Assembly (NCBI RefSeq): GCF_000517445.1
Contig: NZ_CP006965.1
Coordinates: 1,712,681-1,776,680, forward strand
DNA from: Thermococcus paralvinellae
GTDB taxonomy: Archaea; Methanobacteriota_B; Thermococci; Thermococcales; Thermococcaceae
Direction of reading: 5' to 3'
DNA length: 64,000 nt
In this document: positions 32,406-43,869 of the stretch, piece after piece
Numbering within the stretch: position 1 is the first letter of the stretch
Layout: each line of letters opens with the position of its first letter
Made by a program: the position numbers and the translations under genes
Notes under the pieces: model-generated
Seen by the model: the letters and a program-made list of their open reading frames with translations, nothing else
What the model was told of the DNA's origin: nothing
The model's database searches: none

Positions 32406-35400
32406 CTAAGCTCCAAAGAACTCATCCAAACTGACAACTTTCTTTTTCTTCTTAGGTTTGGGCTTCTCAGACTTTTCAGACTTATGAGTTTGTGTTTTAG
32501 CAGAGTCTACTCTTTTTTCAACTGTTTTCGGCGTTTCTACCTTCTTCTTTCCGTTTCCATTGAACTTATCAAGATAGCCGTTCTTAGCAACAACTTTTCC
32601 TGTCCTCTCAGCAATCATTCTGTCACAGATGTCATTTGTGTTTAACGCCAACAGAGTTCTCTGAGTTTCGGGGAAGACATTTGTAAATAGAGTTTTAATG
32701 TCTTTCTCCGTTAAGCATATCCTCTGCCTCGTGTAATTGAGCACATCATAGTTCGCAACCAACAGTTTTGCTGTCGGAAGATATTTTTCAATAGCACCCT
32801 TGCTGACTGTTAGGACTATCTTTCCACCACACTTTGGACATTTTCCACTCAAAGGAGGTCTTCTGTACTTAGTATTGCACTTTACACATCTAAATTCCTG
32901 CCTTGTAAAGCTCCTCAAGTTACCTCTCAAGTCTGGAATTAGATGAGAGTTAATTATCGTCTCAGCAACGTGATGCTCATTAACAGCCCTAATTTTCTCA
33001 GCCAAAGCTAATTGCTGCCTAACTTTTTCCTCCATATCTCCCAACTGCTTGTACTTGCTCAGCTTTGGTCCAAGAGCAATGTCATCGGTGTCATGGGTGA
33101 ACTTTAAGCCTTCATACATCTCCGGCTTCCCTAATCTATCCTCAACCCTTTCAACAACCCCAACAAGTTCCTTCGGAGATTTAAGTTCATACGTTGCTTC
33201 ATAGAATTCGAGCGGATAATAACGGGCAATGTCCATATTGTGGACTTCGCTGTCAACTTCTCTTGGATCAAGCCTTGTAGTTACAACGAGAGGAGCATCC
33301 ATTTTTCCTCCACGCTTCTCGGGCAGATAATAACGGGAGAAGTTCAATAATGCATCAAGGAGGAGCATGACAGCATCCTCGTCGCCATCACATTGAGATG
33401 TTACAATATTTTCATTTATTATGACATTATGATATATTTTAGCATTTAGAGAAAACACAAAGTCATCAATTGATTTGACATACTCGACACGCTTAACCTT
33501 TAGGAGCCATCCATTTTCAGTGAAGTGCTTATCCTTAACGCGATTTCTAGTCTTGTGTAAGTCATAAACAGAGTTCTTACGCTCACTAATGAAGCCAATC
33601 TCCTCAAAGAACCTGTCATAGTGTTCACCAGCTATGTTGAGAGCATATACCTTAGATACTGGCGGCTCGTTTCCACGCTCAATATGATAGAGCCTTCCGC
33701 GAGCGTTGCCTCTGTTGGCATTCTTGTCCATAGTGTAATATCCTCTGATACCAAACTTGGACAGAAGCAAAGTTTCAATATCCTCAAGGAGGGGCTTGTT
33801 AACGCTATAAACAACTACACGAGCAGCTGTTTTCAAGGCACTCCCATCTCCCTCGAAATACGCCTGAAGCAAGTGCCTAACCTTCTCCTTTGGAAGCTTG
33901 AAGACAAATGCCGGGACCCTTTTATCCTTAGCTCCTTTTCCAATCTTTAGAACTCTAGTGAAAAGCAGATAGATAACCCTTGAGCCAACAGTTATTTTCT
34001 CCCCACGCTCGTAGATTCCAAAGCCATCTCCGAAGGCTTTCCTAAGGGCACGTTTAATGTCCTCTCTAACATCCTCATCTCCGTTTGAGAAGCTTATCTG
34101 ATAGACACTGTCACTCTCTCTTGCGTAACCTTCTGCTAAATAGTAGCCTATAAGCCTAAGGAGAGGCTCTATTGGAATGAAGCGCTTGATTTTTACGTGG
34201 TCGCGCTTAAAGCCAATGTAACAGTCAGGCACATCCTTAATCGAGAGACCCTTTTCTTTCAAAACCTCAAGGAGAACTGCCAAGGGTATGGAATTTCTTC
34301 TTATGTAGTCAGGGTTAACTTCAGCACCAATTTCAATTAGCCATTCAGCTATTCCGCGAACCATTATCCCCTCATGAAGCTCCTCAAACTCGTCTTTTGA
34401 GAATTCCTCGAGCAAATCTATGCTGTCAATATCATCTTCTGGAAACTCAATCTTAGGTACAAGAATCAAGTCACCTTCCTTTACTTCAAAAGCTCTCTTC
34501 TTAATGAACCCCCCATTTTCGTAGACGAGCACCGGATGATCAACCGTCGTTTTAAAACTCCTACCCAGCTCAAGCTCGAACCTTATGATGTGATCAGTTG
34601 AAGGCAGTTTAATCACGTCTTCAATGTCAGTTAAAACTACTTTTCCGCTCTCTTCGTCAAAGGAATAAACTTTGATATCTACTTTTGGCTTCTTTCTTAC
34701 ATATGCCATGTTTTCATAGCTTTCTTCTTCAAATAGCTCATACAGCTCTCTGAGCGTTATCCTCTGAGGCATTCCGTTGATCTGAACAAGTATTCTAGTA
34801 TCACCAGGGAAGCAGTTCCTCCTCTTTGCAGCATGATAATACGGATGAGCGTAGCCCACAAGAGCATCAACAAATCCTATAATCCTTCCAATGATTCCAG
34901 CGGATGTGTGCGGAGCTAAGCCTATGACAAGATGACCAATCAAATCCTCCATCTTCTCGACATTGTAGAACCTTGGCAGACCATAAAACCTCTCAAGCAG
35001 GTCATCTATAAACTTTGCAACCCTTACAAGATACTTTCCAGCCTCTTTAGAAAGGATAATATCTTGAACTTTGAGCTCAACTATCTGATCTTCATTCACC
35101 AAAGGCTTTCCTTCAAAGTCATGGGTATAGCCCAATTCACGGAGCTTCTCAACGCTTACTCCAATCTCTCTCGGCTTGAAATGAGTTATTGGTGCATCTG
35201 TTGCATCAAAACGAATTGTACCATCCTTGAACACATACACATCATTCTTAGCCCTCAGTATTCCCTTCTCTAATGGCTCTGGCACTTTGTGGGCTGAAGT
35301 CATACCCATAACGCCTTTGAGCTTATCAAGAGTATTCACTCTCACATTTTGCATTGCCTGTTTTACAAGTTGAGAGGGGTTTATTGTCCTTTTGACATAA

Positions 35401-37667
35401 GCCCTCATCTCAATGCCGCACTTTGAACAGATCGTTTCCTCGGTTGACTGATAACCACACTTTGGACATCTATACAACAGCTTAGCCTCAGCTCCACACA
35501 CGGGACAAGTTGGAAAGATATCAACATGACCGCAGTTGGTGCACTTGAACTGGGCGATCTCAACCTCGGCGAGCTTTCCTTCCTGTGCAGCTTTGTAAAT
35601 ATCTCTCGAGCTACCTCCGGCCAAACCAATCGGGAAGAGGACGTGAACTGGTGGCTTCATTTTTCTCTCTTTAGCTTTTTCCGGTCTTCCCATTCTCGCA
35701 CCAATCCAGCTTATTCCTCTGTCCCTAAGCTTTACCTCACTGATTTCATTGATTATGTCCATGGAAGTGTGGAATTCCTTTGGCTCAAATCTTTTCTCCA
35801 AGTTAGCTAAGGGAGTTAGCAAAGCGGCGCTCCAAGGATACTCAATGATTACGCTTCCATCTTCAACCCTGTGAGGCAAGCCGAGCAGTTCAAGGTAGCG
35901 CTTGCCTGTTCTTCTAAGCACTTCCAAGCTTATTACAATCTTCTTGGCATACTTTGTTCCAAGATATTTGTCCCACTCAATCTCAGCATTGACGAGGAGA
36001 TTCTGCAGTTCAGCGACTTCCTCTGGCTTAAGGGTGTTCCAGTAGAGAGTGTAGTATGGGTGAAGGGGAATCCCAAGGACTTTTGATAGATGGATTGCCT
36101 CTTCAACTTTTGGTCTAACTCTCATTGGGTCTCTCAAAAGCTCTGCCAAAAATTCAGGCTTTAAGTCAAGGTAATCCGCGGCTTCTTCAACTGCCTCTTT
36201 ATCATTTTCAGCAAAGGGCTTGAGAGAAACTTCATATATGTCTTCAACTGCTTTCACAAACTCTTGAATCCACCATTCTTCAACATAATTAGCTGGAAGT
36301 AAGGTTTGATTGTTCTCCACAAAGTCTCCAAACGCTATAATTGCATCACCCAAGTAGAGAATTTCCTCGACTTGATCCCTAATCTTTAAAGCAAGATAGT
36401 AATCGTCAACCCTAATGACAGAGCCATCTTTGAGCTTGACAATTGGGCCTTCAGCTGTTGTAGCAGGAGTAACGATACAGCCCTTTCCAGGCCTTTCAGT
36501 CTTCATTTGCGTTCCTACAGCTAAGAATTCATCAACGAGAATCATGACTGCCGGGTTTATACTCCAAGTTGCGAATCCACTTACTCTTGAGCGACCGTAC
36601 CTCAAACGGAAGCCACCATTTTCAGATGGCTCTGCAAATAATGGTCTTCCCCCAATGATTTCCTTTGTGTATTTGTTATTTGGAGCAATATTAGCCCTGA
36701 ATTTTTCATAAAGTTCATAATAGAAGCCTTTTTTAACTTTTACAGAAGTCCTTATCTCAGCTTCTTCTGCTTTTGAGTCCTCAGCTTTCTCTTCTGTCTC
36801 TTCTTCCGTTTTGCCCCTCTCCTTTGCTTCAACAAATTCCTTAAGCCAGTCCCAGCCCTCAATACCCATTTTATCAATATATTTAACCAGCTTTTTCGCC
36901 TTTTGAAGAACACCTTCTGCCAAAACGAGAATTGCTCCACCTCTTAGCTGATTAGTCTCAACTCCCGGAACGTCTCTATGAGAAACTTCAACGTCATCAG
37001 TCGCTTCACCAGTTATCTCAACTGGAATATTTTGCATAGCCAGTCTCACTTCATCTGCTGATGGATGATACTGCAAGCGAGTAACGGCTCTGTGATACAA
37101 ATCAACTTCTTCAACCATTCTCTCTATGTGTTTCTCTGTGGGCTTAAAGCGATCCAATCCAAGCTTTTTCCTAACGTAATCACCAACGAGAACACTCAAT
37201 GCCTGAGCAGTTCCACCAGAACTTCTGATTGGGCCAGCGTAGTAGAGAGCCAAATACTCAGTTCCATCAAGATTCTTCTTGATTTTAACCTGAGCTATAC
37301 CTTCAATTGGAGCAGAAACTATACCCTCCGTCAGAATAGCCAATGCCGTTCTAACAGCCTGCTCCGCCAGCTTTTCTTTACTATCAAACTCTCCAAATTT
37401 GCCTTCAATGATTTCATCAACAATTTTAAGAGCAGCAAGCTCTTTGCCATACTCCTTTGCGAGCTCCCTAATTCTTTTGGCAACACCTTTTGGACCAACC
37501 AAGCTTTCGACACGACCCGCCATGTCTGTTGCTTGAGGAATTTCAACATCTCTGACAGGATCTTTTCCCTGAGCTCTCGCTTTCTTGGCTATCTCATAAG
37601 CCTTATCAATTTCTTTCTGCAACATTTCAAAATAAGCTTTCATTTCATCGCTGTAAAGCTCGCTCAT
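32406..37667 (-). CDS. polC: DNA polymerase D large subunit (DP2), with intein
   Basis: 1753 aa precursor; 1279 aa after removal of the 474-residue intein (precursor residues 952-1425). DP2 is the catalytic subunit of the replicative archaeal polymerase D, with a two-barrel active site. Visible: the conserved N-terminus 'YFEMLQKEIDKAYEIAKKAR', a cysteine-rich zinc block 'CTNCGHVDIFPTCPVCGAEAKLLYRCPKCGYQSTEETICSKCG', and the catalytic C-extein beginning 'CDGDEDAVMLLLDALLNFSRYYLP'. A second zinc pair 'CVKCNTKY...CPKCGGK' follows, then a Lys/Pro/Thr-rich tail ending in a PCNA-binding-like 'SLDEFFGA'. The start overlaps the DP1 stop by 4 bp. Confidence 0.97.
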   Translation of the reverse strand: MSELYSDEMKAYFEMLQKEIDKAYEIAKKARAQGKDPVRDVEIPQATDMAGRVESLVGPKGVAKRIRELAKEYGKELAALKIVDEIIEGKFGEFDSKEKLAEQAVRTALAILTEGIVSAPIEGIAQVKIKKNLDGTEYLALYYAGPIRSSGGTAQALSVLVGDYVRKKLGLDRFKPTEKHIERMVEEVDLYHRAVTRLQYHPSADEVRLAMQNIPVEITGEATDDVEVSHRDVPGVETNQLRGGAILVLAEGVLQKAKKLVKYIDKMGIEGWDWLKEFVEAKERGKTEEETEEKAEDSKAEEAEIRTSVKVKKGFYYELYEKFRANIAPNNKYTKEIIGGRPLFAEPSENGGFRLRYGRSRVSGFATWSINPAVMILVDEFLAVGTQMKTERPGKGCIVTPATTAEGPIVKLKDGSVIRVDDYYLALKIRDQVEEILYLGDAIIAFGDFVENNQTLLPANYVEEWWIQEFVKAVEDIYEVSLKPFAENDKEAVEEAADYLDLKPEFLAELLRDPMRVRPKVEEAIHLSKVLGIPLHPYYTLYWNTLKPEEVAELQNLLVNAEIEWDKYLGTKYAKKIVISLEVLRRTGKRYLELLGLPHRVEDGSVIIEYPWSAALLTPLANLEKRFEPKEFHTSMDIINEISEVKLRDRGISWIGARMGRPEKAKERKMKPPVHVLFPIGLAGGSSRDIYKAAQEGKLAEVEIAQFKCTNCGHVDIFPTCPVCGAEAKLLYRCPKCGYQSTEETICSKCGIEMRAYVKRTINPSQLVKQAMQNVRVNTLDKLKGVMGMTSAHKVPEPLEKGILRAKNDVYVFKDGTIRFDATDAPITHFKPREIGVSVEKLRELGYTHDFEGKPLVNEDQIVELKVQDIILSKEAGKYLVRVAKFIDDLLERFYGLPRFYNVEKMEDLIGHLVIGLAPHTSAGIIGRIIGFVDALVGYAHPYYHAAKRRNCFPGDTRILVQINGMPQRITLRELYELFEEESYENMAYVRKKPKVDIKVYSFDEESGKVVLTDIEDVIKLPSTDHIIRFELELGRSFKTTVDHPVLVYENGGFIKKRAFEVKEGDLILVPKIEFPEDDIDSIDLLEEFSKDEFEELHEGIMVRGIAEWLIEIGAEVNPDYIRRNSIPLAVLLEVLKEKGLSIKDVPDCYIGFKRDHVKIKRFIPIEPLLRLIGYYLAEGYARESDSVYQISFSNGDEDVREDIKRALRKAFGDGFGIYERGEKITVGSRVIYLLFTRVLKIGKGAKDKRVPAFVFKLPKEKVRHLLQAYFEGDGSALKTAARVVVYSVNKPLLEDIETLLLSKFGIRGYYTMDKNANRGNARGRLYHIERGNEPPVSKVYALNIAGEHYDRFFEEIGFISERKNSVYDLHKTRNRVKDKHFTENGWLLKVKRVEYVKSIDDFVFSLNAKIYHNVIINENIVTSQCDGDEDAVMLLLDALLNFSRYYLPEKRGGKMDAPLVVTTRLDPREVDSEVHNMDIARYYPLEFYEATYELKSPKELVGVVERVEDRLGKPEMYEGLKFTHDTDDIALGPKLSKYKQLGDMEEKVRQQLALAEKIRAVNEHHVAETIINSHLIPDLRGNLRSFTRQEFRCVKCNTKYRRPPLSGKCPKCGGKIVLTVSKGAIEKYLPTAKLLVANYDVLNYTRQRICLTEKDIKTLFTNVFPETQRTLLALNTNDICDRMIAERTGKVVAKNGYLDKFNGNGKKKVETPKTVEKRVDSAKTQTHKSEKSEKPKPKKKKKVVSLDEFFGA
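33393..34814 (-). other. Intein within PolD large subunit, with homing endonuclease domain
   Basis: 474 residues, exactly 1422 bp, between extein ends KRRN and CDGDE. Block A is CFPGDTRIL, block B contains TVDHPV (T-x2-H). Two LAGLIDADG-type motifs are 'LIGYYLAEGYA' and 'LLQAYFEGDGSA', both with acidic catalytic residues, so the endonuclease may be active. The C-terminal residues are TSQ before the +1 Cys: the usual His-Asn is replaced by Ser-Gln. A C-terminal Gln is known for the Pyrococcus abyssi PolII intein at this site and still supports splicing. Confidence 0.95.
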
Positions 37668-39697
37668 TCACACCACCTGCTGAAATCAACAACTGTCTTT
37701 AACCTTGCAGTTTCGATATCAATTATCGGAACTCTCGCTGGAGTTGGAACAATATTAACCATCTTCTGGAACTCAGTTTGGGCTTGCCAAGTAGCTGAGT
37801 TAATCAAAAACACACCGCGATAGATCTGGTAATCCAGAACATGAACGTGACCCATCTGAACCAAATCTGGGACTTCCTCAATGACAAGCAAATCCTCTGG
37901 GTCTGGCGCAATTGGAACTTTTCCACCAAATGTAGGTGCGACGTGCCTGAGCTTTAGCAGTTCAATCATCGGCTCAACAGGACGGAGATGACTCTTACCA
38001 GGGATATAACTCACAACGTCCTCAATGCCTCTTCCATGAACAACCAGGAAGTCTCTACCATGGAGGTTAATAACGGCTGGATTACTTATGATTACTGCGT
38101 TTTTTAAATCGTAAAGCGGCTTTGCATACTCTCTATAGAATTCAGGCTGAGGGAGAGCAGTTCTCGCAGCATCGTGATTGCCTGGACCGATGAACATAGT
38201 TATATGATCTGGGACATTTGCCAATAGATTTGCTAAGGCTTCATACTGGTCAAATATATCTGGAATTGAAAGCTCATTGTACTGACCTGGATAGATACCA
38301 ATGCCATCAACAACATCTCCAGCAATTATCATGTACTTTATCCTGCTTACAATTTCCTCCTCTTCTTTGCTTTCAACGTTGCCGTTAAGCCATTCAAGGA
38401 ATTTCATAAATGCTTTTTCACAGAATTTTGTACTTCCAACGTGAATGTCACTGATCAAAACAGCATAGACTTTTTCTTCAAGAGGTGGCTTTTCTCGCTT
38501 GTAGAGTGGAACATCAGGCAAATGAAGCTTGTTCGCAAATAAAATCCCACGCTTTGAGTAATATCCTCTAAAAGCAACGACACTATCTGGGAGAATTTCA
38601 AATGCCTTCTTGTAATCTTCATTATCTCTTCCCAAGAAAACCTTGACAATACCCGTCATATCCTCCACTTCAAAAATAAAGCCCTTCTTTGTTTCTCTCT
38701 TTGAGTTGACAAGGCCAATAATCGTAACTTCCCCATCTGGGTTCACATAGCTAAGCTTCCCTATATCCACAACCCCACTAACTTCAGGATTCTCCCTTAA
38801 GATTCTTCTTAATTTCTTCAGTCTGCTCTTAAAGTAGTTCTCATAAACTTTAACTATTATTTCTCCCTCTTTACCATTTGCGTTCTTAGCTTTTGGGGGC
38901 TTTAACTTGACTTTCCTTACGTCAAATTTGATTTCATACTCGGATTTTATCCTCTTTGCGATAAATTCAAAGCTTTCATTTGGTTCAACCCTAAAGTCTT
39001 CATAAATTGAATATGCTCTCTTTTCTTCAACTGGAATTTCCTCCTCTTCCAGTGGAACCAAGACTCCGTAATCACCATAAACTGCCCTTACTCTACCCCC
39101 GTTTTCTTCATCACCGTTACCATTGTACTCTTCACTAACAGAAGTTCCAGTGGAAATGAAACTCTCCTCCCTTTCAATTGTGGGTTCTTCTTCCACTATT
39201 TCTTCAGAAATAGTTTCAGAGGCCACATTTTCAATAGGTTTTCCAGTGGAAACAAAGGTCTCTTCTTCAGAGGACATTTCTTGAATTTCATGAGTTATTT
39301 TAGCAGGAACAGCTGTTTGGGATTGAATTTCAGCATTTTCTAAAACCTCCAATGTTGTTTCATTACCTATAGTCCTTTGGATTGAGATTTCTTCTGAGCC
39401 TTCATTGGTGCTGATTTCCATTGGAACTTCAGCTGTAGCTGTTATGGGCTCTGCCTTATTTTCCACTGGAGCCTTTGGGATATATTTCGTGAAATTTTCC
39501 AATGGAGATGATAACCCTTTAAATTCAAGAAACTCTTTAGCAAGCTTTTCATCAATTACAAATGTATTCTTTGCCCGTGCAAATTTTACAAGCTCTGCCA
39601 AAGTGAAGTTCTTTTTGTAATATTCAGAAAGAATAAAGTATGCCGATGGAGTAATGAGATAGCGATTAGAAAGCAAATCCCTTATCAGCTCGCTCAT
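37664..39697 (-). CDS. polB: DNA polymerase D small subunit (DP1), 3'-5' exonuclease
   Basis: 677 aa from ATG 39697 (GGAGG 8 nt upstream; the TTG at 39700 is an alternative). An N-terminal helical domain of ~70 residues, then an acidic Ser/Thr/Glu-rich disordered linker of about 130 residues. An OB-fold domain and a calcineurin-like phosphodiesterase domain follow, with 'DIHVGS', 'GDVVDG', 'GPGNHD', 'VVHGRG' and 'MGHVHVLD' supplying the Mn-binding residues of the proofreading nuclease. The start overlaps the Cdc6 stop by one base (TGATG). The linker-coding DNA holds several origin-recognition-box-like sequences. Confidence 0.96.
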   Translation of the reverse strand: MSELIRDLLSNRYLITPSAYFILSEYYKKNFTLAELVKFARAKNTFVIDEKLAKEFLEFKGLSSPLENFTKYIPKAPVENKAEPITATAEVPMEISTNEGSEEISIQRTIGNETTLEVLENAEIQSQTAVPAKITHEIQEMSSEEETFVSTGKPIENVASETISEEIVEEEPTIEREESFISTGTSVSEEYNGNGDEENGGRVRAVYGDYGVLVPLEEEEIPVEEKRAYSIYEDFRVEPNESFEFIAKRIKSEYEIKFDVRKVKLKPPKAKNANGKEGEIIVKVYENYFKSRLKKLRRILRENPEVSGVVDIGKLSYVNPDGEVTIIGLVNSKRETKKGFIFEVEDMTGIVKVFLGRDNEDYKKAFEILPDSVVAFRGYYSKRGILFANKLHLPDVPLYKREKPPLEEKVYAVLISDIHVGSTKFCEKAFMKFLEWLNGNVESKEEEEIVSRIKYMIIAGDVVDGIGIYPGQYNELSIPDIFDQYEALANLLANVPDHITMFIGPGNHDAARTALPQPEFYREYAKPLYDLKNAVIISNPAVINLHGRDFLVVHGRGIEDVVSYIPGKSHLRPVEPMIELLKLRHVAPTFGGKVPIAPDPEDLLVIEEVPDLVQMGHVHVLDYQIYRGVFLINSATWQAQTEFQKMVNIVPTPARVPIIDIETARLKTVVDFSRWCE
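39040..39510. repeat. Cluster of ORB-like sequences inside the DP1 coding region
   Basis: TTCCAGTGGAA at 39047-39057, 39145-39155 and 39241-39251 (96-98 bp apart), TTCCATTGGAA at 39416-39426, TTCCACTGGA at 39461-39470 and TTCCAATGGA at 39497-39506. The core matches the elements in the adjacent origin. In the minus-strand gene some copies are read TCC-ACT-GGA (Ser-Thr-Gly) and others CCA-NTG-GAA (Pro-X-Glu), so they are not a protein-level repeat. Binding by Orc1/Cdc6 is inferred. Confidence 0.6.
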
Positions 39698-40959
39698 CAA
39701 AACAACCTCCTCTGTGTGACAATATTTATGGTGAGGAGAGGTTGGAGGGAATAATCAAAGCGGTAAATATTTTTGACCTTATATGGTGTAACGTTCAGCC
39801 TTATTTCTTTTGTCCTTCCATATCTTCCCTTGCTGACAACCTTAGCATTAATGATGCCCAGCATGTCGAGCTCATTTATTAAGTCACTAACCCTTCTCTG
39901 GGTTAGGGGTTCAATATCCATATAATCACAGAGCTCTTTATACACTGAGTAAACATCACCAGTGTTGGCTGGCAGATCACCGTTCTCATCAAGGAGCACT
40001 ATAGCATAGAGGAGAATTTTTGAGTGTAAGGGAAGAGTCTTAATAACCTCTTCCATTGTATCTTGCTCAATCTTTTCCTGAGCTTTCCACACATGTTTTT
40101 CGGTAACTTTTGATGCCCCTTCTCTTTCAGCAATTTCACCACTTACTCTAAGCAAATCCAAGGCTCTTCTAGCATCACCATGTTCCCTTGCTGCTAAAGC
40201 AGCACAGAGCGGAACAACTGCCTCATCCAGAACATCTGGATAAAATGCTTCTTGAGCTCTTTGCATTAAAATATCTCTCAGCTGATTTGCATCATATGGT
40301 GGGAAAACCACTTCTTCTTCACTGAGACTTGAAAGAACCCTAGGATCAAGATACTCTTTGAATTTCAGATCATTTGAAATTCCTATGATACTCACCTTCG
40401 CATTCCTTAATTCAGTATTTATACGGGTCAAGCTGTAAAGGATGTCATCCCCACTTTTCTTAATTAGCTTATCAATTTCGTCAAGAACTATTATAACGAA
40501 TCTCTCTTTTGCATCAATAACCTCCTTAAGCTTTGTATAAACTTCATCAGTGGGCCATCCAACCAATGGGACTTCGAAACCACTTTCATGCTTGAAGTGA
40601 TTCACAATGTTTGCTAAAACTCTATACTGAGTATCGACGATTTCACAGTTGAGATAAATAACATCCACTGGAATGTTATACTTGCGGGAAATTTTCTTCA
40701 ACTCCTCAGTAACAAATTTTACGGTAACAGTTTTTCCAGTACCAGTTTTTCCATAAACAAATACATTAGAAGGAGTTTCACCCCTCAAGACAGGAACCAG
40801 AATATGTGCCAATGCCTCTATCTGCTCCCTTCTGTGAGGCAATTCCTTAGGGGTATAACTGTGCCTAAGTACTTCTTTGTTCTTGAAAATTTTACGTGCC
40901 TTTAGGTACTTTTCAAAAATTGAATCGAGGTAAGTCTGCTCCTTTTCTTTTCTTTCCAT
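39697..40959 (-). CDS. cdc6: Orc1/Cdc6 replication initiator
   Basis: 420 aa. AAA+ ATPase with Walker A 'GKTGTGKT' (residues 70-77), Walker B 'FVIIVLDEIDKL', sensor 1 'SIIGISND' and sensor 2 'HGDARRALDLLR'. A C-terminal winged-helix domain ('NTGDVYSVYKELCDYMDIEPLTQRRVSDLINELDMLGIINAKV') binds origin recognition boxes. It marks and loads the replicative helicase at oriC, here immediately upstream (40960-42801). It is the first gene of the cdc6-DP1-DP2 operon, so initiator and replicative polymerase are co-expressed. Confidence 0.97.
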   Translation of the reverse strand: MERKEKEQTYLDSIFEKYLKARKIFKNKEVLRHSYTPKELPHRREQIEALAHILVPVLRGETPSNVFVYGKTGTGKTVTVKFVTEELKKISRKYNIPVDVIYLNCEIVDTQYRVLANIVNHFKHESGFEVPLVGWPTDEVYTKLKEVIDAKERFVIIVLDEIDKLIKKSGDDILYSLTRINTELRNAKVSIIGISNDLKFKEYLDPRVLSSLSEEEVVFPPYDANQLRDILMQRAQEAFYPDVLDEAVVPLCAALAAREHGDARRALDLLRVSGEIAEREGASKVTEKHVWKAQEKIEQDTMEEVIKTLPLHSKILLYAIVLLDENGDLPANTGDVYSVYKELCDYMDIEPLTQRRVSDLINELDMLGIINAKVVSKGRYGRTKEIRLNVTPYKVKNIYRFDYSLQPLLTINIVTQRRLF

Positions 40960-41261
40960 CCTTGACCCTCCACTGGAAACATAACCCTTGTTTATAAAGG
41001 CATTTGTTATTTAAAGTACATATTTTTTGCGTTCTGTTATAAGATTTATACATAATTATAACATAATATCCCATTAGATTTCTAAGGTTATCAATATTAA
41101 TATTGGCTCCACAGGAAACATAAGATGCAGAGGAAGCAATAGGATAATACCCGCTAGGGTATATATGCTTTATTGGGCAAGTTCATGTAAAAGTTTTAAA
41201 GAATGTCCTAAAAAATTCAAATACATAATTCGCGTTTAAAAGTCAAAAAGAAGTTAAAATC
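40960..41261. other. Non-coding part of probable oriC next to cdc6
   Basis: 302 bp, AT-rich, without a convincing gene. It holds mini-ORB-like sequences TCCACTGGAAACATAA (40969-40984) and TCCACAGGAAACATAA (41108-41123), plus the promoter region of the cdc6 operon (for example GTTTATAAAGG at about 40989-40999). Confidence 0.75.
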
Positions 41262-41879
41262 TCAGAAGTAGCCAACATCAGCAGATTCCTTCGATAGACC
41301 TTGTGACTTTAGAATATCATCTATGAACTTCTCAGCTTCTTCTTTGGGCATCCCTACTTTTACAATCAAAAATTTAATGAGTTCTTCCCTCGTAGCACCG
41401 CTTTCAAGTCTTTCAAGTATCATAAGTACAACCCTCTCAAAAACAGCTTTTGCAAAGTCTTCCTCTAGACCCAACGCTTTTACAAGTTCGTTCATTCCTA
41501 TCAGAAGAGCCACTAATGCATCATTAAATTCAGCTTTTCCAAGCGTTTTCTTGTCTAAATCCACCCTTAAGACAACTTCATCGTTGATTCCACTTAAGGT
41601 GAACTTTAATAAGTTTATTCGATCATTCAAAACCAGCATTGTATGATATATCTTCAGCCTTTCTTCCAAAGGCAAGACTATTGTCTCTACCCCAAATGGC
41701 ACCATTAAGTGAACAAATCCTTCACTGAATAAGATATTCAAGATAAAGGGCATCTTAGGATGTTCGGCAATGTAAAAATGTTCACTTTGTTTTTTAACTA
41801 TCCATGGCAAATCTACAATATCTTGAGCATCGTCACGTCCATCTTTTAACCATTGAACAACTTGTTCTTCAACTTCCAC
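41262..41879 (-). CDS. Conserved-looking hypothetical protein within the origin region
   Basis: 205 aa from GTG 41879, with GGTGAT 5 nt upstream. Soluble alpha/beta protein: an N-terminal ~110-residue domain with the strand pattern of YbjN/CesT-type folds ('FYIAEHPKMPFILNILFSEGFVHLMVPFGVETIVLP', then 'NLLKFTLSGINDEVVLRVDLD'), followed by helical segments. The fold assignment is tentative. It lies between two ORB-rich stretches, and its ribosome-binding site and start codon lie next to or inside an ORB-like sequence (41874-41884). Confidence 0.7.
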   Translation of the reverse strand: MEVEEQVVQWLKDGRDDAQDIVDLPWIVKKQSEHFYIAEHPKMPFILNILFSEGFVHLMVPFGVETIVLPLEERLKIYHTMLVLNDRINLLKFTLSGINDEVVLRVDLDKKTLGKAEFNDALVALLIGMNELVKALGLEEDFAKAVFERVVLMILERLESGATREELIKFLIVKVGMPKEEAEKFIDDILKSQGLSKESADVGYF

Positions 41880-42133
41880 AGGAAATCACCAACAAATATT
41901 GGCGTTTGTCCTTTAAAATGTCATCGTTCCACAGGAAACATAAGGAACAATTGTACAGTAATATACATTTATTGTTGATATTTGTAAACGTCGGAATGAT
42001 GACATTTGTCTATTTCAAGTGGAGTTAAAATACACACAAATGTTCATGAAAATATGTTCATTAGTGAAAATATATGAGCATTAAGCTAAACATAATAACT
42101 TAACAAATATACAAAAGTTTAACAGAACATAGC

Positions 42134-42160
42134 ACCCTGAGAGTTTTATTTCCACTGGAG
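42134..42160 (-). repeat. Long ORB element, left of AT-rich region
   Basis: On the minus strand CTCCAGTGGAAATAAAACTC is followed by TCAGGGT. It shares CCAGTGGAAATAAAACTCT with the ORB at 42414. A G-rich end like that of archaeal ORBs points left. Confidence 0.8.
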
Positions 42161-42413
42161 TTGGGCGTAAACACCCAGAATATTTTCCATTTCTTTGGTG
42201 ATAAACACTCCCACTTTCTATACTCATTCTAGTATATAAAATTATCTATGAACATTGTTCAAAAGTTCGAATAAAAAATAGTATAAACATACAGAGATAT
42301 GGCCTTCTACTTAAAAATACATGAACATATGATTAATTTACTACGTAAAGACTTTTTTCAGAATTTGTTAACGCCATATGTTTTCGTTATCGTCACTTGA
42401 TCTCCAAAAGTAA

Positions 42414-42441
42414 GTTCCAGTGGAAATAAAACTCTGGGAGG
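42414..42441 (+). repeat. Long ORB element, right of AT-rich region
   Basis: GTTCCAGTGGAAATAAAACT followed by CTGGGAGG. The dyad TTCCAGTGGAA plus a downstream G-string is the archaeal ORB signature. Inverted relative to the element at 42134-42160. Confidence 0.82.
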
Positions 42442-42457
42442 TCATTTCGATAGACAT

Positions 42458-42485
42458 CTTAAAAGACCTTTATTTCCAGTGGAAC
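42458..42485 (-). repeat. ORB-like element adjacent and inverted to the right ORB
   Basis: On the minus strand GTTCCACTGGAAATAAAG, then GTCTTTTAAG. The dyad and AAATAAA are kept but the G-string is weak, so it may be a mini-ORB. It faces the ORB at 42414-42441. Confidence 0.7.
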
Positions 42486-42801
42486 TTTTTGATGTTTACT
42501 GTCCATGGTTATTCACTGTTGGGTGTTTTAGATTTATGTCATAATGTCACTCACTTAGATTCGCAGCTTTCATAGAAACTTAAAAATAATAATGACTATA
42601 AGAGTTTCTTCATAGCATTAATTGGGTGGGTTCCATTTCCACTGGAAATTTTAGTGTATATTGGTTTATTTGTCAAAAATCAGCCTTACTTATCTTGTAT
42701 TTTTAATTTTGGATTATATGCAGCTTTTTTCCCGAAAAGAGAAAAATATATAACCCCTAGAATCAAACACTTACCAGCAATTATGCTTATGGGTGGTACT
42801 G

Positions 42802-43869
42802 ATGGCGAGAAAGAAAAAGGTTGAAATTCCTGAAGATGAAATAAAAGAACTTGATGAGTTTGAAGAGCTCTCAATTGATGCTGAAGTCACTGAAACATCA
42901 AAGAAAAAGAAGAAGGAAATCAAAACACTTGAAGATCTCCCGGGAGTTGGTCCAGCTACAGCTGAAAAGCTTAGAGAGGCAGGTTATGATAGCTTGGAGG
43001 CAATTGCTGTTGCATCTCCGATAGAGCTCAAGGAAATTGCTGGAATAAGTGAAGGTGCTGCCTTAAAGATAATCCAAGCTGCTAGAGAGGCAGCCAACAT
43101 TGGAACGTTCATAAGGGCTGATGAATACCTCCAGAGGAGGCAGACCATAGGCAGGATTTCCACTGGAAGCAAATCTCTTGATAAGCTCCTTGGTGGTGGG
43201 ATAGAAACACAGGCAATTACTGAGGTTTTCGGTGAGTTTGGTAGTGGAAAGACTCAAATAGCCCATACTTTAGCTGTCATGGTTCAACTTCCTCCAGAGG
43301 AAGGAGGTTTACACGGAAGCGTCATCTGGATTGATACTGAAAACACATTCAGACCGGAGAGAATAAGACAGATTGCTGAAAACAGAGGCTTAGACCCAGA
43401 TGAAGTTCTCAAGAACATCTATGTTGCAAGGGCTTACAATACAAATCACCAAATGCTCCTTGTTGAGAAAGCCGAGGAAATAATCAAGGAGAAGCTCAAC
43501 ACTGACAAGCCTGTTAAGCTTTTAGTCGTTGACTCTTTAACAAGTCACTTCCGTTCTGAATACGTTGGTAGAGGGGCTTTAGCAGAGAGACAGCAAAAGT
43601 TAGGAAAGCATTTGGCGGATTTACACCGTTTGGCAAACCTATATGACATTGCAATATTTGTTACAAACCAAGTTCAAGCAAGGCCAGATGCATTCTTTGG
43701 CGACCCAACGAGACCAATCGGTGGGCATATCTTGGCTCACTCGGCCACACTTAGAGTATACCTCAGAAAAGGCAAAGCTGGAAAGAGAATTGCAAGGCTC
43801 ATTGATTCACCACATCTACCAGAAGGAGAGGCAACCTTTAGAATCACGGACAAAGGTATTGAAGATTGA
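42802..43869 (+). CDS. radA: DNA repair and recombination protein RadA
   Basis: 355 aa from ATG 42802 (GGTGGT 4 nt upstream; in-frame GTG 42793 lies in that site). Archaeal Rad51/RecA homologue forming filaments on single-stranded DNA for strand exchange. It has a Lys-rich N-terminus, an N-terminal helix-hairpin-helix domain ('[19 protein letters not shown]', residues 43-61), a polymerisation motif region near '[13 protein letters not shown]', Walker A 'GEFGSGKT' (144-151) and Walker B 'LLVVDSLT'. The L2 region reads '[25 protein letters not shown]'. No intein, unlike some Pyrococcus RadA genes. Located on the far side of oriC from cdc6. Confidence 0.97.

Follow-up and report, generated by a model that had tools for sequence, protein, structure and literature searches.

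A 64,000-nucleotide stretch of the Thermococcus paralvinellae chromosome (contig NZ_CP006965.1, positions 1,712,681 to 1,776,680 of the forward strand; hereafter the window) contains a canonical Thermococcales replication origin, oriC, a kind of origin already known for this group, beside the initiator gene cdc6/orc1. Sequence comparison and analogy with other archaea indicate that the locus probably combines an oriC core with outer origin recognition boxes (ORBs) that are linked to the origin, embedded in neighbouring coding sequence and bound by Cdc6, and that most likely would act as a local Cdc6 store or sink tuning initiation. The outer sites lie mainly in DP1, the gene for the small subunit of DNA polymerase D (PolD), and at the start of radA; all coordinates are collected in Table 1. 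The genome is a single contig of 1,957,742 bp. It was compared with related genomes (Cdc6 was found in 90 of the 94 searched), which are grouped below under the genus labels g1 to g6, g3 being Pyrococcus-like.

The core is formed by two long ORBs, ORB1 and ORB2, which are oriented outward, each followed by a G-containing end. Comparison of inverted repeats in the window showed that their 20-nucleotide arms (42140–42159 and 42416–42435) are 100% complementary, with 253 bp between the elements, in agreement with the first-pass annotation of this DNA, which had described two long inverted elements pointing apart across about 250 bp. The 20-bp ORB pattern is matched with one mismatch at 42141–42160 (minus strand) and with none at 42415–42434 (plus strand). 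ORB1, ORB2 and the DP1 site at 39145 match letter for letter the Thermococcaceae ORB expression [TC]TCCAGTGGAAA[TC][GA]AA[AG]CTC given in Table 1 of PMC4164010. The core pair was present in 63 of the 71 loci examined, with a spacing of 261–284 bp; of the eight misses, six were g5 cdc6 loci (whose core lies elsewhere), another was a truncated locus and the last was a g5 locus taken around a single ORB.

A GC-skew analysis of the chromosome, as the first-pass annotation had suggested, showed a switch at the core. Across 20 sampled stretches of 20 kb, mean GC skew in the half chromosome after the core exceeded that in the preceding half by 0.107, and this contrast was the largest (rank 1) of 98 grid positions. 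Genomes G004, G024 and G078 are taken to be those of Pyrococcus abyssi, T. kodakarensis and T. litoralis, respectively. In G024, the published T. kodakarensis oriC position of 1,712,000 agrees with the locus. In genome G087, six pieces of four published T. barophilus primers match at the orthologous locus, five over their full length (21–34 nucleotides) and one over 19 of 20, and G087 was therefore taken as a T. barophilus genome. In T. barophilus MP, the orthologous locus, at about 1,671,000 bp, is the site of a marker-frequency peak reported for stationary-phase cells; the same paper describes such peaks at oriC in three species (PMC11005403). The proposal that a replication origin lies beside cdc6 is thus backed by the published ORB expression (PMC4164010), the core pair in 63 of 71 loci, the skew and the T. 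barophilus peak.

The array of ORBs is longer than first annotated. It spans about 39.0 to 43.2 kb of the window and crosses coding sequence, reaching about 3.5 kb to one side of the core and 2.5 kb to the other, and its outer part is mostly coding, falling in the DP1 segment that encodes the flexible linker and in the early part of radA. The further ORB-like dyads that the first-pass annotation had listed are all present: those at 40968, 42474 and 42637 are good matches, those at 41874 and 41927 have one mismatch and that at 41107 has two. It had missed seven dyads in the DP1 coding sequence (39026–39507, in the part encoding the N-terminal linker, on the far side of cdc6 from the core), one in cdc6 (40663) and one in radA (43158). 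The pattern TTCCASTGGAAA, with up to two mismatches, was matched 62 times in the window compared to 18.3 (SD 5.1) in shuffled sequence, and none of 100 shuffles reached 62. The full ORB, also with up to two mismatches, occurs at eight sites in the whole 1.96-Mb genome, seven of them within 3.6 kb at this locus: three in DP1, one at the cdc6 start and three in the core. The eighth (L198, G000:C1:1819098-1819117) falls within a GH57 amylase/glucanotransferase gene at a distance of 64 kb. Dyad density is centred on the core and falls to background beyond about 4 kb, with the same profile shape in each group of genomes. The outer ORBs showed no consistent polarity toward or away from the core.

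The DP1 dyads are far more frequent than the encoded protein would lead one to expect. DP1 was counted in 61 Thermococcaceae loci, including the window, and in six further g5 loci, the other genomes (mostly small contigs) and the DP1 of G002 being left out. When synonymous codons were shuffled within each gene of the 61 loci, 233 DP1 dyads with at most one mismatch were observed compared to 17.9 expected, and 121 perfect dyads compared to 1.9; the expectation for perfect dyads was 3.3 when the shuffle was confined to the linker and 1.8 when codons were drawn from other genes. In the 55 loci from genera other than g5, DP1 lies beside the origin and carries at least one dyad in all 55 and a perfect dyad in 52, every genus except g5 being represented, and no perfect dyad was found in the 66 kb of DP1 outside the linker. 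The same analysis gave 37 perfect dyads compared to 0.1 expected in radA (45 loci with radA inside the stretch) and a small excess, 4 compared to 0.1, in cdc6.

A distance of exactly 96 bp separates two of the DP1 sites in 53 of the 55 non-g5 loci; G023 (L125), in which the DP1 and cdc6 frames are broken, was scored as a miss. The linker on either side of this pair varies by about 90–100 residues, and the residues between the two sites are just 19–25% identical between genera. The peptide E-S-x-I-S-T-G recurs at a fixed spacing of 32 residues, which could mean that a motif works in the DP1 protein and that the likeness to ORBs is a by-product. This explanation is highly improbable and was rejected on codon usage and on the comparison of linkers: when every S-T-G tripeptide of the linker was counted, 115 of 120 were encoded TCC ACT GGA, codons whose background frequencies in g4 are 0.21, 0.18 and 0.16, respectively.

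Genomes in which genes have moved relative to the origin served as controls. In g5, the core lies beside radA and hundreds of kilobases from cdc6 (in G078, the ORBs are at 974–976 kb and cdc6 at 1,594 kb). Among the 111 and 99 grid points of two g5 genomes, the skew contrast at the core ranked 6th in both and that at cdc6 57th and 61st, respectively, indicating that skew follows the core, not cdc6. cdc6 and DP1 are still together in g5 after leaving the origin. DP1, split from the origin, carried a dyad in none of 12 g5 loci, and no S-T-G peptide was seen in the six g5 linkers that were read. DP1 is replaced beside the g5 core by two genes, one with a PIN domain and one Csa3-like, the latter below the Pfam cut-off. 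A perfect dyad was found in the PIN-domain gene in 11 of 11 g5 genomes and in none of 19 orthologues elsewhere in other genera (best 30 of 84 matched genomes), and in the Csa3-like gene in 10 of 12 g5 genomes and in none of 18 orthologues elsewhere (best 30 of 87 matched genomes); fragments and split matches (G082, G077) are among these loci. Where radA lies next to the origin and encodes the peptide ISTGS, as in g1 and g4, the dyad is intact in 31 of 43 loci, compared to none of eight in g3, where radA encodes the same peptide about 11–126 kb from the origin. Together, the codon shuffles and the rearranged genomes imply that the dyads are DNA signals tied to the origin and not peptide motifs, and the sequence comparisons, though with few independent events, support selection at the DNA level, in force only as long as a gene adjoins the origin. 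Chances are about even that the Thermococcales origin is a field of initiator sites 5–6 kb long, in which selection would write sites into the genes beside the core, that of an essential replicative polymerase included, and drop them when a gene moves. The g5 core would then be parted from its own cdc6 and equipped with a different coding-embedded array in the PIN-domain and Csa3-like genes, and laboratory origin-deletion strains would still possess a Cdc6 control element in the form of the DP1 array.

By comparison with known archaeal origins, Cdc6/Orc1 would bind the two long inverted ORBs of the core and open the AT-rich DNA between or beside them. The outer sites may likewise be Cdc6 binding sites that influence the core in cis, most likely by storing or sequestering Cdc6 locally; initiation would then be tuned in the manner of the ORB-rich region downstream of Haloarcula hispanica cdc6E. 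That region, oriC2D, is reported to restrain its origin, probably by titrating Cdc6E (PMC3936714; PMC4010727). Alternatively, the outer ORBs could be positive cis elements: looping would bring Cdc6 from its sites in DP1 and radA to the core, where it would assist in building or loading the initiation complex, with the 96-bp spacing setting the face of the helix. Such a helper role would fit the exact spacing in 53 of 55 loci and the confinement of the array to about 4 kb around the core, with the core at its centre, but the closest studied archaeal case, Haloarcula oriC2D, is inhibitory (PMC3936714). A helper role is judged rather unlikely, and titration or local storage seems, by that analogy, to have an edge over it. 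The T. barophilus oriC deletion is relevant here. Primer mapping confines it to about 0.9 kb of the core, with the sites in DP1 and radA retained, and the marker-frequency peak is reported to be abolished in this strain (PMC11005403). Since the deletion strain keeps the outer sites yet loses the peak, the outer sites are not sufficient to fire, and a second, independent origin in DP1 was rejected.

A role of the outer ORBs in transcription, with Cdc6 at its own start and in DP1 repressing or tuning the cdc6-DP1-DP2 operon, would account for the dyad over the cdc6 start and the DP1 sites downstream of it, and the three genes do form one operon in T. kodakarensis (PMC5663688). Yet in g5 the DP1 sites were lost on leaving the origin although cdc6 and DP1 were kept together, and unrelated genes beside the g5 origin bear sites, which makes this explanation improbable. 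There is also very little likelihood that the region is a decayed or unused origin whose pattern is inherited history. T. kodakarensis and T. barophilus can indeed lose oriC or cdc6 (PMC5663688, PMC11005403), but conservation exceeds the synonymous expectation in the 55 non-g5 loci, the chromosome skew is present and the stationary-phase peaks at oriC in three species (PMC11005403) speak for use.

Several points weigh against a Cdc6 store or sink tied to the origin. Titration is preferred to activation by analogy and not on the strength of a result. Both T. kodakarensis and T. barophilus are viable without oriC (PMC5663688, PMC11005403), and the core is thus dispensable under laboratory conditions; the T. 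kodakarensis deletion removed cdc6 together with one ORB and three mini-ORBs from the intergene (PMC5663688). The codon shuffle of the PIN-domain gene gave a weak excess, 14 perfect dyads compared to 3.9 expected (best 30 of 84 matched genomes). The origin-adjacent radA of g5, g2 and g6, with the peptide ITTGS, has no dyad, and a rule that every neighbour of the origin has a dyad at a fixed place is ruled out by these genes. Finally, the g5 rearrangement and the g3 rearrangement of radA probably each happened once, so that the 12, 11 and 8 genomes counted above are not independent; four genes agree on the tie of the dyads to origin position, though in few independent events.

Table 1. Features of the oriC locus (window coordinates; mismatches are to the dyad unless stated otherwise)
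Feature	Position	Strand	Remarks
DP1, PolD small subunit	37664–39700	−	NCBIfam NF003117; flexible linker bears intragenic ORBs
Dyad in DP1	39026–39036		1 mismatch
ORB-like dyad in DP1	39047–39066	+	Other codon phase, V-P-L-E
Full-length ORB in DP1	39145–39164	+	Encodes E-S-F-I-S-T-G on the minus strand
ORB in DP1	39241–39260	+	Exactly 96 bp from the 39145 site
Dyad in DP1	39416–39426		Perfect
Dyad in DP1	39461–39471		1 mismatch
Dyad in DP1	39497–39507		1 mismatch
cdc6/orc1	39697–40959	−	Initiator gene adjoining the origin; Pfam Cdc6_C, Cdc6_lid
Dyad in cdc6 coding sequence	40663–40673		1 mismatch
ORB-like dyad directly upstream of cdc6	40968–40987	+	Good match; overlaps the cdc6 purine-rich ribosome-binding site
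Weak dyad	41107–41118		2 mismatches
205-amino-acid open reading frame between cdc6 and core	41262–41879	−	No Pfam or NCBIfam match
Mini-ORB-like dyad	41874–41884		1 mismatch; covers the start of the 205-amino-acid frame
Mini-ORB-like dyad	41927–41937		1 mismatch; TTCCACAGGAA
ORB1, core long ORB	42134–42160	−	20-bp motif at 42141–42160; G-containing end outward
AT-rich interval ORB1–ORB2	42161–42413		Candidate unwinding region; 253 bp, 29.2% GC
ORB2, core long ORB	42415–42441	+	TTCCAGTGGAAATAAAACTCTGGGAGG; inverted-pair partner
Third ORB-like element	42465–42484	−	2 mismatches to the 20-mer; dyad 59 bp from the ORB2 dyad
Fourth ORB	42628–42648	−	0 mismatches to the 20-mer with S at centre
radA recombinase gene	42805–43869	+	Pfam Rad51
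Dyad in radA coding sequence	43158–43168		Encodes I-S-T-G-S

The interval between ORB1 and ORB2 had been assigned as the unwinding region. Its AT-richness holds (29.2% GC compared to 39.7% in the whole window), but it is no more AT-rich than its immediate flanks (27.0% GC on the left and 31.8% on the right), and a core richer in AT than its surroundings was rejected on this comparison. Composition alone therefore cannot mark 42161–42413, which is a plausible candidate for the unwinding region. Palindromic TGTTCA/TGAACA elements lie beside ORB1 (42037–42066) and inside the core (42250–42262) and are partly conserved: TGTTCA occurs in 56 of 63 cores and GAACATTGTTCA exactly in 11 of 63. A motif resembling this palindrome is listed by Ori-Finder 2 (PMC4164010). 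An internal element, ACACTCC (about 42204–42215), appeared conserved in the alignment; the exact string is present in just 19 of 63 cores, and no claim is made for it.

The local gene order is DP2, DP1, cdc6, the 205-amino-acid frame, the AT-rich intergene, radA and nucS. DP2 (32406–37667) contains an intein-sized insertion; it reads 1753 amino acids compared to the 1270 residues given for P. abyssi DP2, and the insertion is likely intein-like. In several relatives, radA lies within long frames of about 500–860 amino acids. A relative of the 205-amino-acid frame (L207:6184-7005) keeps to the core in g5 though cdc6 does not, and shows a weak likeness to YbjN, below the cut-off. Elsewhere in this genome, at G000:C1:648989-650137, lies the gene for a second, distant homologue of Cdc6/Orc1 (29% identity). 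The dyad directly upstream of cdc6 is partly explained by its overlap with the ribosome-binding site; it is retained in g5, in which cdc6 no longer adjoins the origin. In many g4 genomes and in G001, a full ORB of the TTCCAGTGGAAACGAAACTC type stands a few dozen bases before a W/Y-class tRNA synthetase gene (PF00579; L191, L192, L200 and others among L187–L197, L199 and L201). It is often 19–26 kb from cdc6, yet lies at 79–135 kb in G019 and G021. As this ORB stays with its gene at such distances, it is tied to the gene and not to the origin, and it was excluded from the origin array; it is possibly part of a Cdc6-controlled promoter.

Should Cdc6 bind the intragenic sites, much of its binding array would have survived the published oriC deletions in T. 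kodakarensis and T. barophilus, which would bear on why these archaea retain a dispensable origin and on what governs its use in different growth phases. Proximity to cdc6 can also mislocate an origin, as in g5, where cdc6 is hundreds of kilobases away. Earlier origin surveys (PMC3528665, PMC4164010) examined intergenic regions, and the two oriC deletions considered here likewise concerned intergenic DNA. No description of ORBs inside DP1 or radA was found in the literature covered; the Pyrococcus Cdc6 binding studies of Matsunaga et al. (2001/2007), which lie outside that coverage, may show such sites, and no priority is claimed.

The locus shares with the oriC of P. abyssi, P. furiosus, T. 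kodakarensis and T. barophilus the cdc6-DP1-DP2 order, the ORB motif, the AT-rich core and the single origin. It differs in that the published descriptions consulted put the ORBs in the intergenic region, whereas the array here extends into the coding sequence of DP1 and radA. Like datA of Escherichia coli, it has a cluster of initiator sites away from the core, which in datA is thought to be an initiator sink (PMC4010727); the initiator of datA is DnaA, and the likeness is one of analogy only, not kinship. The oriC2-cdc6E/oriC2D system of H. hispanica likewise has a second ORB cluster downstream of the initiator gene and apart from the core, but the 11 ORBs of oriC2D occupy 722 bp of intergenic DNA (PMC3936714), whereas here all seven dyads lie inside an essential polymerase gene.
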